DNA of 64,000 bases from contig WHTH01000019.1 in NCBI GenBank assembly GCA_009377865.1, positions 1 through 64,000 on the forward strand, read 5' to 3'. Numbering within the stretch: position 1 is the stretch's first letter; every line of letters starts with the position of its first letter. The notes beneath the pieces were generated by a model, which did not search any database, was not told where the DNA came from, and saw only the letters and a list, made by a program, of their open reading frames with translations. Origin of the DNA: Pseudonocardiaceae bacterium. Lineage in GTDB: Bacteria; Actinomycetota; Actinomycetes; Mycobacteriales; Pseudonocardiaceae. Below, one piece after another: positions 48,103-53,729 of the stretch. The translations under genes and the position numbers were made by a program.

Positions 48103-48807
48103 GTGGTCGAGTTGGCTGGCACGCAGGGTCGGGCCGGCGCATCGGGCGCTAGCCCCGGACGGGGCTTCGTCGTGGTCAGCGCGGTGATCCTCGTCGTCGT
48201 CGTCTTGGCGGTGGGCGTGGCGGCCGCGCTACTCGCGCGGACCATGGCAGCTGCCCAGAGCATCGACAAGAAGGCTGCGACCATCGCGGAGACCGGCCGC
48301 GGCATCAACACCGCGACCGACTCGGTCGTCCAGCTCAACCGGACCAACGAGACCGCCTCGTCGATCCTGACGAGCGCGATGCCGCTGGAGGACTCGCTCA
48401 CTACGATCGTCAACAGCGCGACGACCATCGACGACCTCGCGGTGTCGATCAACAACAGTGCCGGGACCATCAACGGCACGGCTGGCGACGTCAACGCCAC
48501 CGCCAAGACGATCAATGCGAGCGCGACGTCGATCAATGCCGATGCCAGCAGCATCAACGGCCATGCGACCGCGATCAACGAAACCGCGCAGGGCATCAAT
48601 GGCGCGGCGGCCGAGATCCTCGACGTGGCGATCCGTATCGACGACGACGCGACGGCCATCAACGAGAACCTCGCCAGCACCCTCGGCATCGTCGGTGCCG
48701 TCGAGCGAGACACCACGAACATCGTCGGTGAGGCGGTCGAGGCACGGCAGACGTCGTCCTGCATCGGACAGAAGCTGCTCGCCCCCGAGAACACAGACGA
48801 CTGCTAA
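48103..48807 (+). CDS. Heptad-repeat single-span membrane protein A
   Basis: 234 residues; GTG 48103 has AGGAG six bases upstream. A membrane span at about 21-45 (FVVVSAVILVVVVLAVGVAA) precedes an external domain that is almost entirely heptads of the form x-I-N-x-x-A-x, about ten to twelve consecutive units (for example TINASATSINADASSINGHA). Ile and Ala alternate with 4/3 spacing, predicting a long coiled coil. It ends with a Cys 15 residues from the end and a C-terminal Cys (CIGQKLLAPENTDDC). No signalling or enzymatic domain. It is first of three similar genes; I do not recognise the family. It resembles the periplasmic stalk of chemoreceptors, without their output domain. Confidence 0.75.
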   Translation: MVELAGTQGRAGASGASPGRGFVVVSAVILVVVVLAVGVAAALLARTMAAAQSIDKKAATIAETGRGINTATDSVVQLNRTNETASSILTSAMPLEDSLTTIVNSATTIDDLAVSINNSAGTINGTAGDVNATAKTINASATSINADASSINGHATAINETAQGINGAAAEILDVAIRIDDDATAINENLASTLGIVGAVERDTTNIVGEAVEARQTSSCIGQKLLAPENTDDC

Positions 48808-48819
48808 GGAGGATGGAAG

Positions 48820-49560
48820 ATGGCAACGCAACCAATGACCAGAGCCTCGTCCTCCCGTACCAGTAATCCACCCGGTGGAGGGCCTGGCTCCGGTGGGACG
48901 GTCGTCCGGTGGATGTGGACCTGGATCGTGCTCGGGATCCTCGTCGTGATCACCGTCATCGGGTTCCTGATCGGGATCGTGCGCTCGCTCGAGTCGATCG
49001 ATGCGGGTCTGTTCGAGGCCTCCAGTGCGGTGCAGGGGGCGGGCGGCGACGTCGTCACGCTGCCCGCGTCGATCAGCTCGATCAACAACAACCTGACCGA
49101 GATCGACACCGCGCTGAAGCCGATCCGCGGCCAGGCCGGCGACATCAGTTCCGGGCTGGCGTCGATCACGTCCTCGCTGCAGGACATCGATGCGTCGCTC
49201 AAGGACACCTCGGCGTCGCTGGTCGACACCTCCGGGTCGCTGGCCGACACCTCCGGGGTGCTGGTCAACGCGTCGGACTCGGTCAGCGTGATCGACGGCT
49301 CGCTGGCCGACACCTCGAATGTGCTGTCGACGGTGCTGGGCCAGGCCGGCGACATCGAGGCTGAGCTCGAGGCGGCGCAGAACGCGGGCAGTCAGGGCAC
49401 GAACGCGGTGCCCCCGAAGCTCGTCACGGCGAACGGCATCCTCGCACCCGCCCAGGCCGACACCAGCAACATCACCACGCAGCTCGTCGGTGTCAACAAG
49501 AACCTGACGGGCATCTGCGAGTCGCCCGCAGTCGATTTGCTACCACCCAACCGCTGCTAG
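48820..49560 (+). CDS. Heptad-repeat single-span membrane protein B
   Basis: 246 residues from ATG 48820; AGGAGG lies seven bases upstream and the gene begins 12 bases after the previous stop. The span at about 31-53 (WIVLGILVVITVIGFLIGIV) is preceded by a Gly/Pro-rich cytoplasmic tail. The outer part has seven-residue repeats with the consensus SLxDTSx (ASLKDTSASLVDTSGSLADT) flanked by helical segments. Like protein A it ends in a Cys pair, CESPAVDLLPPNRC, the last residue being Cys. It is clearly built like its neighbours but shares little sequence outside the heptads. Function unknown. Confidence 0.75.
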   Translation: MATQPMTRASSSRTSNPPGGGPGSGGTVVRWMWTWIVLGILVVITVIGFLIGIVRSLESIDAGLFEASSAVQGAGGDVVTLPASISSINNNLTEIDTALKPIRGQAGDISSGLASITSSLQDIDASLKDTSASLVDTSGSLADTSGVLVNASDSVSVIDGSLADTSNVLSTVLGQAGDIEAELEAAQNAGSQGTNAVPPKLVTANGILAPAQADTSNITTQLVGVNKNLTGICESPAVDLLPPNRC

Positions 49561-49570
49561 GGAGGCGAGT

Positions 49571-50458
49571 GTGCTCACACGCTTGAGAAGGCCGGGTGTG
49601 CTCCCTGCCGTCATGCTCGTGATCATCATTCTCTGGGCGTTGTTCGCGGTCTTGATGCTGACCAACACGTTGGTGAAGGCCGGGTCGATCGACGACCGGG
49701 TGGAGGTGATCAACGGTGAGGTCGCGCCGATCGACAAGGAGCTCGACAATGTCGTGCTCGCCGAGGAGGTCGCTGACACCTCCGGGCAGATCCGGGAGGC
49801 GGCAGCGCCGCTGTCCGGGCAGTTGACGCAGACCAACGACAGCGTCAAGGGGATCGACAGCAGCGCGAAGAAGATTCTGTCCACCGCCGGGAAGATCAAC
49901 GGGACAGCGAAGGAGATCAACGTTTCGGTCCAGGAGATCAACGGCAACGTCAACACGATCGGGTCGACGCTGGACTCGGTCGAGGGCAACGCGCAGTCGA
50001 TCAACGGCTCGGTCGACGGGATCACCGCCAGCTTCAGCGGCACGCTCGCCGAAGTCGTCACGATCGACGACAGATTGGTCGTGGCCAACGGGGGCGTCGA
50101 CACCCTGCTCGGGCAGATCCGCGGCGCCTCGGCGAACATCGCGAACGTGACCGACGTGCAGGTCCCGGCGATCATGACCAATGCATCCGGGATCGAAAAC
50201 AGCCCGCTGCTTTTGAACCCGATGAACCCGACTCTGCTGAACGAGTTGGCTGCGGCGTCGCTGCTGGCACAGGAGCGGAATGCTGCGGCGCGGCCGGCCG
50301 TGCCGGCTCCGGTGCCGGACCTCGCCGGATTGCCGGCGCCGGTTCGGCAGCCGGTGCCCGAGATCGGGGGCGGGATCCTGCCGCTCGGATCAGGGGAGTC
50401 GGAGTCGTCGTCCGGTAACGACAGCGGCTCCATCCTGGGCGGTCTGGTAGGCCCGTAA
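49571..50458 (+). CDS. Heptad-repeat single-span membrane protein C
   Basis: 295 residues from GTG 49571 (GGAGG five bases upstream). The span at about 10-32 (VLPAVMLVIIILWALFAVLM) is followed by heptads of the I-N type again (KINGTAKEINVSVQEINGNV). The C-terminal 90 residues are Pro/Ala/Gly-rich and lack the terminal Cys of A and B. Together the three genes form an operon of three size-matched membrane-anchored coiled-coil proteins, suggesting a heteromeric envelope structure. A strong terminator follows 20 bases after the stop. Confidence 0.75.
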   Translation: MLTRLRRPGVLPAVMLVIIILWALFAVLMLTNTLVKAGSIDDRVEVINGEVAPIDKELDNVVLAEEVADTSGQIREAAAPLSGQLTQTNDSVKGIDSSAKKILSTAGKINGTAKEINVSVQEINGNVNTIGSTLDSVEGNAQSINGSVDGITASFSGTLAEVVTIDDRLVVANGGVDTLLGQIRGASANIANVTDVQVPAIMTNASGIENSPLLLNPMNPTLLNELAAASLLAQERNAAARPAVPAPVPDLAGLPAPVRQPVPEIGGGILPLGSGESESSSGNDSGSILGGLVGP

Positions 50459-50480: not shown

Positions 50481-50520
50481 GCTCGGGGGCGCCGGAGACA
50501 CTCCGGCGCCCCCGAGCTTT
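50481..50520 (+). terminator. Rho-independent terminator after the heptad-protein operon
   Basis: A 17-bp perfect stem, GCTCGGGGGCGCCGGAG (50481-50497) pairing with CTCCGGCGCCCCCGAGC (50501-50517), with loop ACA and followed by TTTG. It ends the three-gene operon cleanly. Confidence 0.92.
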
Positions 50521-50806: not shown

Positions 50807-51059
50807 TCAGGGGGCGGGTAGCTCGACCAGCGCGGCGCCCCACTCGGCCGACTGCGCCGTGGACAGTGTGATCTCGCAGCCCGGCAGGTCGGTGACGAAC
50901 ACGACCGCCAGGTCCGTCCGGTCCCTGACCCGCTCGACCAGGAGCCCGGTGGGAAGCTGGGCGCGGGCGGTGTGGATCGTCACTCCCGCGTCGTCGTCGC
51001 ACTCGACGTTCTTGAGCCATCGGAACCGGCCGAGCGTCTCGCTGTGCAGTGCGCTCACC
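50807..51059 (-). CDS. Small protein following the XRE regulator (83 aa)
   Basis: A GTG at 51059 begins VSALHSETLGRFRWLKNVEC, followed by VERVRDRTDLAVVFVTDLPG and SAEWGAALVELPAP. XRE regulators of this type are commonly followed by a small partner gene overlapping in GTGA, and the other frame of the regulator ends with TGA exactly at this GTG. In the sequence as given, however, this segment is in frame with the regulator and can be read as its C-terminus (50807-52072, 421 residues). No family assigned; loosely DUF397-like in size and position. Confidence 0.5.
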
Positions 51060-52072
51060 GCCCGGCTTCCCTCGGGTCGGGTAGCTCGAGCAGTTCGGCG
51101 AGGACGTCCTCGGCGCGGCCGTCGCGAGGGACCGCGCTGCGTTTCCACCCCGATCGCCAGGGACCACGCAGCCACGTTCGCTGGCCCGAAGTGCCACTGC
51201 AACGTGTTGCGCTCCCCGGTGTGGACCGCCAGCCCGGCAGCCTCACTGATCCGGGCGTCGGCCTCGTCGGGACGTCCCTTGCGCGCGGCAAGCTGCGCGG
51301 ACAGCAGGTGCATCACCCCGAATGCCTCCGCTGCCCCGGTGTCATCGCTGGCGGGGTCGGCCTCGGGCTCGATCGCGACCAGCGCGCCGCTGAGCACGTC
51401 AGCAGCGGCGCGGCGCGCTCCCAAGCTGCTGAACCCGCTGGCACCGATCAGTGTGGCGAACCCGGTCACGGCCGGGTCGCCGAGCAACCGGGCGGCCTCT
51501 TGCGCGCGCCGCGCGGCCTGCACGGCGAGTTCGGTCCGGCCGAGCTTGCGAGTGGTGCCGAAGGCGGCGACGCATCCCTCCACAAGCCCCCTCAGCGCGG
51601 CACGGCGGGTGTCGGTGTTCCCCGTTGCGGCGTGGGTGTGCAGCTCAGCCAGCACCACGCCCAAGTCCCGGCAAGCGAGCGCATACCGCGCTTCCTCGCA
51701 ATGCCTGTTGGCCTGTGCCGCCGCCCGGACGAGCTGGTCAACGAGGCGGACCGGGATATCCAGCGCGTCGTCAGGTGTGGTGTCGTAGAGCGCCACGACG
51801 AGCTCTGGCAGTTCCGCCAGCGCATCGGCGGTATCGCGGTCGGTCGGTAGGTAGGGCTGGCCGGTCAGGTCGGCCACAGCGCAGCCCAGCGCCCCGGCGA
51901 GGTCCTCCAGCAGTCCCCGGCGCTCGAACCGGCGATGCCCACGTTCGAGCAGCGACAGGTAGCCCTTCGAGATCCCAGCCAGCCCGGCGGCGACCTCCAC
52001 GCTCAGCCCCCGGCGGCGGCGGATGGTGCGCGCCCGCTGACCAATGGTGCAGCTCTCGTCGGTGGCCTCCAT
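51055..52072 (-). CDS. XRE-family helix-turn-helix regulator, probably frameshifted near its 3' end
   Basis: From ATG 52072, residues 9-65 form an XRE HTH (IGQRARTIRRRRGLSVEVAA then GISKGYLSLLERGHRRFERR), followed by TPR-like helices (LAVQAARRAQEAARLLGDPA, LLSAQLAARKGRPDEADARI) to about residue 300. Beyond LAIGVETQR the reading in the same frame is Arg/Pro-rich nonsense ([19 protein letters not shown]). The alternative frame is codon-like (DGRAEDVLAELLELPDPREA) and stops at 51055, overlapping the next start. An indel near 51140-51200 is the simplest explanation. The uninterrupted frame as given ends at 50807. DNA-binding regulator; target unknown. Confidence 0.7.
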
Positions 52073-52256: not shown

Positions 52257-52922
52257 TCACAGCAGCCGGAAGCTGCTGGTGATCTGGTCGAACGTCGGAG
52301 CCGTTTGGGGGAACTGCTCCTTCGGCACCGACTGGAACACGATAGTGATCATCTTCTTGCCGTCGAACAGGAAGAAGTGGGTGTGTGCTCCCGTCTGCTT
52401 GGTGGCGGCGTCCTCGAATGAGTAGAAGTAGAAGTAGCCCGGCAAGCCTGCCAGCTCGATCTGCGCCGGTTCGGCAAGGAGCTCGACGGACTCGTTCGAG
52501 TTGACGATATCGTCGGCCAGTTTCTTGGCTTGCGGAAGCTGCTCCGGGCCGACCGCCGTCTCGAGTTCCACCACGCGCACCAAAAAGGAGTCCTGCTGGT
52601 TCTTCGCCGCAACCAGCTCGACCTGGGGGTCCTCGGATTGCAGCCGTGTCCACGACTTCGGATAGGACAGCGCGAAGCCGGCCTGCTCGCTACGGAACTC
52701 GACGACTTCGCCCGGCGGGCTGTTCGGCGAGGAGGGCTCGGCAGCGGCGGCCGGTGGTGGCGGCGAAGATGGCGGTGGCGCGGCGAACATCCGTTGCGCG
52801 AATCCCGCTGCGAGCGTTGCCAGGACGCCGGCTACCAGCACCGCGGCGATGACGAGGAGGACCCGCTTGTTGCGCAGGACGCTCAACTTACTCGCGGCAC
52901 CTCGCAATACCCCACCTGCCAT
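52257..52922 (-). CDS. Membrane-anchored PsbP-like protein
   Basis: 221 residues from ATG 52922. An N-terminal basic stretch and span (VLLVIAAVLVAGVLATLAAG, about 21-40) are followed by a Pro/Ala/Ser linker and an external domain beginning EFRSEQAGFALSYPKSWTRL and ending FDQITSSFRLL, the pattern of PsbP/DUF1795-like domains in actinobacterial lipoproteins. There is no lipobox Cys, so it is a type II anchored protein. Function unknown; ligand binding or envelope stress have been suggested for relatives. The 184 bases to the XRE gene hold no other gene. Confidence 0.72.
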   Translation of the reverse strand: MAGGVLRGAASKLSVLRNKRVLLVIAAVLVAGVLATLAAGFAQRMFAAPPPSSPPPPAAAAEPSSPNSPPGEVVEFRSEQAGFALSYPKSWTRLQSEDPQVELVAAKNQQDSFLVRVVELETAVGPEQLPQAKKLADDIVNSNESVELLAEPAQIELAGLPGYFYFYSFEDAATKQTGAHTHFFLFDGKKMITIVFQSVPKEQFPQTAPTFDQITSSFRLL

Positions 52923-53291: not shown

Positions 53292-53729
53292 ATGACAACC
53301 AGACCAGACATGGTGTACGGGATCAGCCCTGGTGGCGAGACGTCGATCTCGCAGGGGTTCGCGCTCATCGCGGGCATGGCTTGCGTTATCCTCGGAGTGC
53401 TCGGGTTCTTCTTCACGGGGTTCGACAACTTCACCGAGAACACCGACGAAAAGCTCCTCGGGATCTTCGCGATCAACCCGTTCCACAACGTGGTCCTCAT
53501 CGGCGTCGGGGCGATATGGTTGCTGGCAGCTTTCGTGCTCACCCGTCCCGCGACGGAGGGCGTCAACTTCGCGATCGGCGGCTTCCTCGTGCTCGCCGCC
53601 GTACTGGGCTACCTCGGATACCTGGACCTGCTCGGCATCGGTGGCCCGGACCCCGTCAGCTTCCTCCACCTGATCGTCGGGGTGCTGGCAGTCCTGTTCT
53701 CCGGTCTCACCGGGGGCGGGCAGCGATAG
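53292..53729 (+). CDS. DUF4383 integral membrane protein
   Basis: 145 residues from ATG 53292 with GAAGAGG upstream. Four hydrophobic segments are visible (FALIAGMACVILGVLGFFFT, NVVLIGVGAIWLLAAFVLT, FAIGGFLVLAAVLGYLGYL, FLHLIVGVLAVLFSGLTGG), and the motif INPFHNVVHL-type (INPFHNVVLIGVGA) is characteristic of DUF4383 proteins. Function unknown. It ends 24 bases before a tRNA gene on the opposite strand. Confidence 0.88.
   Translation: MTTRPDMVYGISPGGETSISQGFALIAGMACVILGVLGFFFTGFDNFTENTDEKLLGIFAINPFHNVVLIGVGAIWLLAAFVLTRPATEGVNFAIGGFLVLAAVLGYLGYLDLLGIGGPDPVSFLHLIVGVLAVLFSGLTGGGQR

Follow-up and report, generated by a model that had tools for sequence, protein, structure and literature searches.

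The window analysed here, a 64,000-nucleotide stretch of DNA (contig C1 of host genome G000, which comprises 4.0 Mb in 121 contigs and is 97.8% complete), carries a compact operon of three genes, A, B and C, whose products, judged by profile comparison, are long-stalked relatives of five kinds of short single-span proteins (s1-s5, ~65-130 aa) found, in Actinobacteriota, alongside high-affinity [NiFe]-hydrogenases (groups 1l and 1m-like) and form I [MoCu]-CO dehydrogenase (CODH). We consider it reasonably probable that A, B and C form a parallel hetero-oligomeric rod of ~27 nm which would belong to a membrane-bound platform serving the oxidation of atmospheric H2 and CO, a reading in which we infer stoichiometry, topology and function.

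As the original prediction had proposed, the three open reading frames follow one another on the + strand (48103-50458), with gaps of 12 (A-B) and 10 (B-C) bases, and each is preceded by a good, purine-rich ribosome site (AGGAGAGAGGG for A, AAGGAGGATGGAAG for B and GGGAGGCGAGT for C). The perfect terminator that it had also listed was sustained only in part: the 17-pair stem is present, but it is followed by a weak T-tail (TTTGTCGTGG), and with 1.6 sites expected in shuffles and 1 detected by the terminator scan, nothing but the stem length is unusual. No sigma-70-like promoter was found. C is longer than A and B because of its proline-rich tail. An XRE-type regulator is encoded at 50807-52072, between the operon and the PsbP-like gene, a position that it does not occupy in a locus of the same genus (L031); a regulator resembling it by eye follows a short s1-like frame on host contig C87 (L081:5512-7479).

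Table 1. The A-B-C operon and neighbouring features in the window.
Feature	Position	Strand	Description
Gene A	48103..48807	+	GTG start, 234 aa; span ~22-40; rod ~41-219 with x-I-N-x-x-A heptads; C220 and C234 at rod end
Gene B	48820..49560	+	ATG start, 246 aa; span ~36-54; rod to ~232 with SLxDTS heptads; C233 and C246 at rod end
Gene C	49571..50458	+	GTG start, 295 aa; span ~10-28; heptad rod to ~215; Pro-rich tail; cysteine-free in this genome
Terminator-like 17-pair stem	50481..50517	+	22 bases past C; weak T-tail
PsbP-like protein	52257..52886	-	N-terminal span; PF01789, 26.6 bits (cut-off 23.5)
DUF4383 membrane protein	53292..53729	+	PF14325, 48.2 bits (cut-off 27)

Each of the three proteins has a single N-terminal hydrophobic span, as predicted, and a strong heptad signal. 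The power at a period of 3.5 residues was 136 for A (residues 51-219), 132 for B (61-232) and 127 for C (39-215), compared to shuffle means of 8.7, 8.1 and 9.9, and none of 5,000 shuffles reached the observed value; identities at a lag of seven residues numbered 42, 35 and 30 for A, B and C against 15.4, 14.3 and 13.0 in shuffles. The motifs first read from the sequence, xINxxA in A and C and SLxDTS in B, stood for A and B, but C proved looser: the pattern xI[ND]xx with A, S or T as the next residue occurs 11 times in A (10 of them with A), nine of these matches sharing one register over residues 108-178, and S-L-x-D-T-S occurs four times in B, while C gave 7 matches with A or V. AlphaFold2 predicted A as one helix over residues 22-226 (pLDDT 92-97 over 111-210 and 51-66 over 21-70; pTM 0.34) and B as helical at low confidence (mean pLDDT 50.9). 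Periodicity and the helical model of A thus agree with the coiled coils foreseen, and disordered monomers, the alternative raised at the outset, fit poorly with the single long helix of A, the model of B being poor.

None of the three proteins matched a Pfam or NCBIfam model above its cut-off, and PHROGs matches were weak. A case for their being pieces of a known coiled-coil family, such as the MCE proteins or the chemoreceptors, could be made from sub-threshold hits (Mtu_fam_mce for B, E 0.04, at 13.1 bits the best MCE match; MCPsignal for C, 16.5 bits) and from a match of the B profile to chemoreceptor chains (E 1e-7 over ~60 positions). However, the family matches fall far under the curated cut-offs (140.5 and 34.6 bits, respectively), and the PDB matches are confined to the repeat and common to tropomyosin, adhesins and designed coiled coils. 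We therefore regard this explanation as highly improbable, and the predicted lack of an MCE or chemoreceptor signalling domain was upheld at these cut-offs. The MCE, chemoreceptor, laminin (Laminin_II, 24.1 bits, cut-off 33), ESAT-6 and phage families were all rejected, their matches being below curated cut-offs or generic to coiled coils. A prepilin-like reading suggested by a glycine ahead of the span was dropped, as no conserved glutamate was seen by eye after it, and a match on contig C26 of the host genome was a different coiled-coil protein.

The relatives that did emerge are the short proteins s1-s5. At two hydrogenase loci (L137 and L138) the five short genes sit exactly between the hydrogenase subunit genes, and by number, size and position, rather than by comparison with the published sequences, s1-s5 are probably the HylTM1-5 proteins of group 1l hydrogenase. 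They occur in CODH clusters too, that of the host included (L146). There, on contig C72, CoxG is followed in the CODH operon by a DUF1059 gene and five genes for short single-span proteins (L146:12335-15043); the only paper found on such short proteins reports them, in the sections consulted, for hydrogenase clusters (PMC9561532).

Because E-values of span-plus-helix proteins may be inflated, profile comparisons were run together with reversed decoys. The comparisons scored A-C at 99%, B-C at 96% and A-B at 86%, with decoys below 5% for these pairs, and A-s1 at 96% and B-s3 at 97%, with reversed-profile decoys at most at 23%. These values indicate that A and C are clear paralogues and B a more distant one; together with the matched rods described below, they agree with the size-matched but sequence-distinct paralogues first proposed. 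The relation to s1-s5 covers the span and the next 75 residues, over which the best partners were s1, s4 and s2 for A, s2 and s1 for C, and s3 and s5 for B, a tendency rather than a clean grouping (B also with s2 at 76% and s1 at 70%; C also with s5 at 69%). Moreover, an s2 profile built without A-B-C matched gene A in the window (G000:C1:48184-48420, E 2.7e-4), and the B profile matched the s3 region of host contig C104 (E 1e-9), the match crossing a stop ahead of the s3 start.

Rod length, counted from where the span ends up to the penultimate cysteine, was compared across 17 operons. A rods had 139-216 residues and B rods 147-252, and the two lengths varied together (Pearson r 0.96), also in independent contrasts based on a tree built from the conserved N-terminal regions (0.947; 16 contrasts, 0 of 2,000 tip shuffles). 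Over the 11 operons in which C carries the rod-end cysteines, contrasts gave 0.872 for A-C and 0.862 for B-C (10 each, 0 of 2,000). The largest outlier was L070, whose B rod exceeds the A rod by 36 residues and whose gene A has a further tail beyond the rod-end cysteines; the A-B correlation was still 0.97 without this locus and the near relatives. The 17 operons exclude L079, loci cut by contig ends (L031, L027, L028 and L025), and L024 and L062-L069, of a related Pseudonocardiales type, some of which lie on the same contigs as loci already used. In the window the rods of A and B measure 179 and 178 residues, ~27 nm if helical, and across lineages the A rod would span 21-32 nm. Equal rods from separate genes, without an obvious other reason, argue that the rods lie side by side, and these matched lengths make a parallel hetero-oligomer likely; the profile relations likewise favour the hetero-oligomer that the original prediction had offered as a possibility.

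Cysteines mark the far end of these rods. A and B have exactly two, at the rod end, in 17 of 17 operons each, whereas C has two in 10 operons, four in one, none in five and a single one within the span region in one. Spacing between the end cysteines varies from 7 to 33 residues, which would suit disulfide loops better than a metal site. The repeats had been assigned to an outer region, a placement that we also favour and consider probable. Mean counts of positive residues before and after the span were 2.75 and 0.92 for B, 2.38 and 2.00 for C and 2.25 and 3.58 for A, means that include rows with uncertain starts (L059, L060 and L079) and a C row lacking the span (L031) in alignments A4-A6; the corresponding values for s1-s5 were 0.0-0.3 and 2.4-3.2. 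By this measure B favours an outside rod, A is ambiguous, and s1-s5 would have their C-termini inside; for parallel rods, the flanks of B argue for a position outside the membrane.

The search for the same arrangement in other actinobacteria, suggested with the original prediction, showed that the operon is recurrent among Actinobacteriota. At E <= 1e-20, strong relatives turned up in 8 of the 150 family genomes, in 4 of 397 at the level of the order, in 2 of 394 for the class and in 9 of 396 for the phylum, the four samples overlapping and the host being counted in each. Weak matches (E 1e-3 to 7e-10), some of them s3-type short proteins, were excluded as A-B-C (4 of 12 genomes in the family, 5 of 9 in the order, 11 of 13 in the class and 15 of 24 in the phylum). 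Four of the family's 8 genomes have all three genes on one contig; the other four are broken by contig ends or have short paralogues alone. The relatives named belong to Pseudonocardiales, other actinobacterial metagenome genomes and Candidatus Siliceabacter maunaloa. Orthologues share 45-58% identity in A, 40-59% in B and 28-46% in C. A single-protein search with C against the contigs of named genomes returned no matches; with an alignment of A as query, 19 loci were obtained. The order A-B-C was constant in all 20 loci read, C running off the contig in L025. Genes in relatives were called by our own scripts (an early version, then one based on codon usage) and named mostly by eye; Pfam or NCBIfam was run on 18 chosen proteins besides A, B and C, and PDB searches on four enzymes. 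Seven loci of related Pseudonocardiaceae (L029, L030 and L032-L036) carry stand-alone short paralogues of A (164-193 codons) and C (136-141) outside the operon, some with near-perfect seven-residue repeats.

The surroundings of the operon connect it to trace-gas enzymes. Within the stretches fetched, 12 of the 20 loci adjoin a [NiFe]-hydrogenase, a form I CODH or s1-s5 genes: A-B-C lies inside [NiFe]-hydrogenase clusters in L126, L127, L128 and L129 and inside CODH clusters in L130, L131, L132, L133 and L059, and adjoins hyp and hydrogenase-protease genes in L079 and s1-s3 or s1-s5 genes in L070 and L080. Eight loci are unlinked, five of them from Pseudonocardiales (the window, L024, L025, L026 and L061), the other three being L060, L078 and L125; L025, L060 and L078 are close to contig ends. 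In the window, in L024-L026 (one related genus) and in L061 (a close relative), the operon sits, by eye, among recR/dnaX/leuA/purL-type genes, and outside these close Pseudonocardiales relatives of the host 12 of 15 loci are linked to the enzymes or the short proteins. The original suggestion of an undescribed envelope structure was therefore right only in part: A, B and C are not isolated, given this linkage and their relation to s1-s5. A PsbP-like gene lies near A-B-C in 11 of the 20 loci (the ten outside the window named by eye), and a DUF4383 gene in four (the window, L070, L129 and L133) and in the partial locus L031, by eye in all of these except the window.

Co-occurrence pointed in the same direction. 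In the phylum sample, 5 of the 9 genomes with a strong B match (G000, G960, G1047, G1095 and G1177) encode a large subunit of hydrogenase that shares 52% identity or more with the one on host contig C104, against 20 of 396 (Fisher P 2e-5; 2e-4 without the host), and in the order sample G171, G182 and G223 have a C104-like large subunit at 74%, 73% and 59% (partial). In G916 (locus L131), G923 and G985 the operon shares a contig with a CoxL bearing AYRCSFR, which we take to be the form I signature, and the best PDB matches of the L131 CoxL were solved CO dehydrogenases; in G1005 it adjoins CoxG and s1-s5, with a CoxL 93% identical to that of G916 on another contig. Of 23 genomes with A-B-C or close paralogues, 20 gave an s2-profile match at E <= 1e-20; in the family sample, s2 was found in all 8 genomes that have a strong relative and in 10 of the other 142, the 8 falling in 2 genera (genus-level P 0.03). 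The profile found no s2 in G528 or G182, and G223 gave only the A-B-C match; CoxL homologues in G528 are remote (32-38%) and its hydrogenase large subunit shares 38% identity. The hydrogenase clusters L137 and L138 contain s1-s5 with no A-B-C nearby. Next to further short single-span genes, L128:16035-17747 (G960) and L127:1850-3571 (G1047) hold a second gene resembling a hydrogenase large subunit, with both cysteine motifs in the L127 copy and neither in the L128 copy.

In the host, the operon is not linked to the enzymes, CODH and hydrogenases being encoded on other contigs. The form I CODH, with AYRCSFR present, lies with s1-s5 on C72, and C15 encodes a hydrogenase closely similar to Cupriavidus HofG (1066 bits), an enzyme assigned to group 1h in the literature. 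In that C15 cluster (L151), neither short single-span proteins nor A-B-C were found over the stretch fetched, which runs to the end of the contig; together with L137 and L138, this indicates that A-B-C is not generally required by these enzymes. A second hydrogenase, on C104, scored 472 bits to HofG, and its gene content resembles published group 1m, 1l and 1m being assigned here from gene content and published descriptions rather than by a hydrogenase classifier. Its cluster has adjacent small and large subunit genes, NifU-, BirA- and CooC-like genes and small single-span proteins (mostly by eye), four of the latter called as genes and a fifth being an s2-profile match; a DUF1059-like gene scored 20.7 bits, just below the cut-off of 21.1, and neither a HybD-type protease nor a tetratricopeptide protein was identified in the stretch read. 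RuBisCO is also present in the genome; atmospheric chemosynthesis has been proposed to rest on this combination of CODH, high-affinity hydrogenase and RuBisCO (PMC9561532).

Linkage, shared family and co-occurrence make a role of A-B-C in trace-gas oxidation likely. We propose that A, B and C would run parallel and in register from the membrane as a hetero-oligomeric coiled-coil rod, most simply with one copy of each, with the rods of A and B, and in 11 of 17 operons also that of C, ending in a cysteine pair. The spans of the three may pack with s1-s5 into a membrane platform, on which the cytoplasmic enzyme would dock and hand electrons to quinone, and the rod, probably outside, might set spacing or anchor the platform, either in the cell wall or on a partner, for instance the PsbP-like protein. 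A direct part of A-B-C in docking enzymes or moving quinone is offered only as a tentative proposal. Given G528, G182, the unlinked loci and the hydrogenase clusters without A-B-C, it would be an optional or separately encoded part.

It could instead be argued that A-B-C is a general cell-wall spacer or stalk merely travelling with trace-gas clusters, its function unrelated to H2/CO oxidation. The 8 unlinked loci of 20, the free short paralogues of A and C elsewhere in related genomes, and G528, which has A-B-C and no detectable s2, would suit such a role, yet the profile homology to s1-s5, the linkage in 12 of 20 loci across several families and the co-occurrence with s2 make it rather improbable. 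Another alternative is a HucM-like rod on the cytoplasmic side, holding the enzyme off the membrane and giving menaquinone a route. CODH of the form I type is cytoplasmic, and one pattern applied to the first 60 residues of the host small subunit found no twin-arginine motif, so that this enzyme presumably stays in the cytoplasm, out of direct reach of an external rod. The positive charge of s1-s5, almost only after the span, and that of A, ambiguous or leaning so, also agree with an inward C-terminus, and a coiled-coil stalk has a published precedent in HucM, as far as the consulted part of PMC10017518 describes it. Nevertheless, B carries its positive residues mainly before the span, the variably spaced end cysteine pairs would suit disulfides outside, the Ile/Ala cores would leave no obvious lumen, and no HucM-named chain appeared among the PDB profile matches of a library in which its presence was not confirmed; we hence consider a cytoplasmic rod unlikely and retain the external one.

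For the group 1h enzyme of Methylacidiphilum, the consulted part of PMC7174314 calls the membrane partner 'currently unknown' and states that membrane association 'seems essential' for high affinity. Our analysis names eight candidate genes for the membrane attachment of related soluble enzymes in Actinobacteriota, shared by two unrelated enzymes, hydrogenase and CODH, and offers a structural prediction, three chains of matched length. A broader and doubtful extension is that the eight related single-span proteins, five short ones and a three-chain heterotrimeric rod of equal-length chains crosslinked at the ends (21-32 nm), may constitute an interchangeable membrane apparatus shared by the atmospheric H2/CO enzymes of many Actinobacteriota; if so, this apparatus would supply the connection to membrane and quinone that is still missing for these soluble enzymes.

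We know of no bacterial example of such a three-chain rod. In coiled coils of the laminin or fibrinogen type, three different chains match in length and carry cysteines at their ends, and A-B-C would be alike if the heterotrimer is right, with no homology beyond the heptads. No account of A-B-C was found in the literature searched, which comprised texts without their supplements and offered no gene name to search by, and the consulted parts of PMC10305171 and PMC11018855 hold nothing on these proteins. Among described systems, the closest are HylTM1-5, five short transmembrane proteins encoded between the group 1l [NiFe]-hydrogenase subunits according to the part of PMC9561532 consulted. A, B and C share with them one N-terminal span followed by a helix, an N-terminal profile relation (to s1-s5) and gene neighbourhoods; they differ in length (182-387 aa over 17 operons), in their long heptad rods and end cysteines, and in forming their own three-gene operon, which does not lie between subunit genes and is also found in CODH clusters. 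Group 1m clusters, as presented in those same sections (PMC9561532), resemble the host C104 cluster in gene content but have two small single-span proteins instead of four plus one, and no A-B-C-like genes are described for them there. Finally, HucM, the stalk of the Huc (group 2a) hydrogenase of M. smegmatis, is, in the part of PMC10017518 consulted, a peripherally membrane-associated coiled coil made from one gene, a homotetramer of 188-residue chains that forms a hydrophobic tube. A-B-C, as proposed, would likewise connect a high-affinity hydrogenase with the membrane through a helical coiled coil, but it would be built from three distinct single-span chains.
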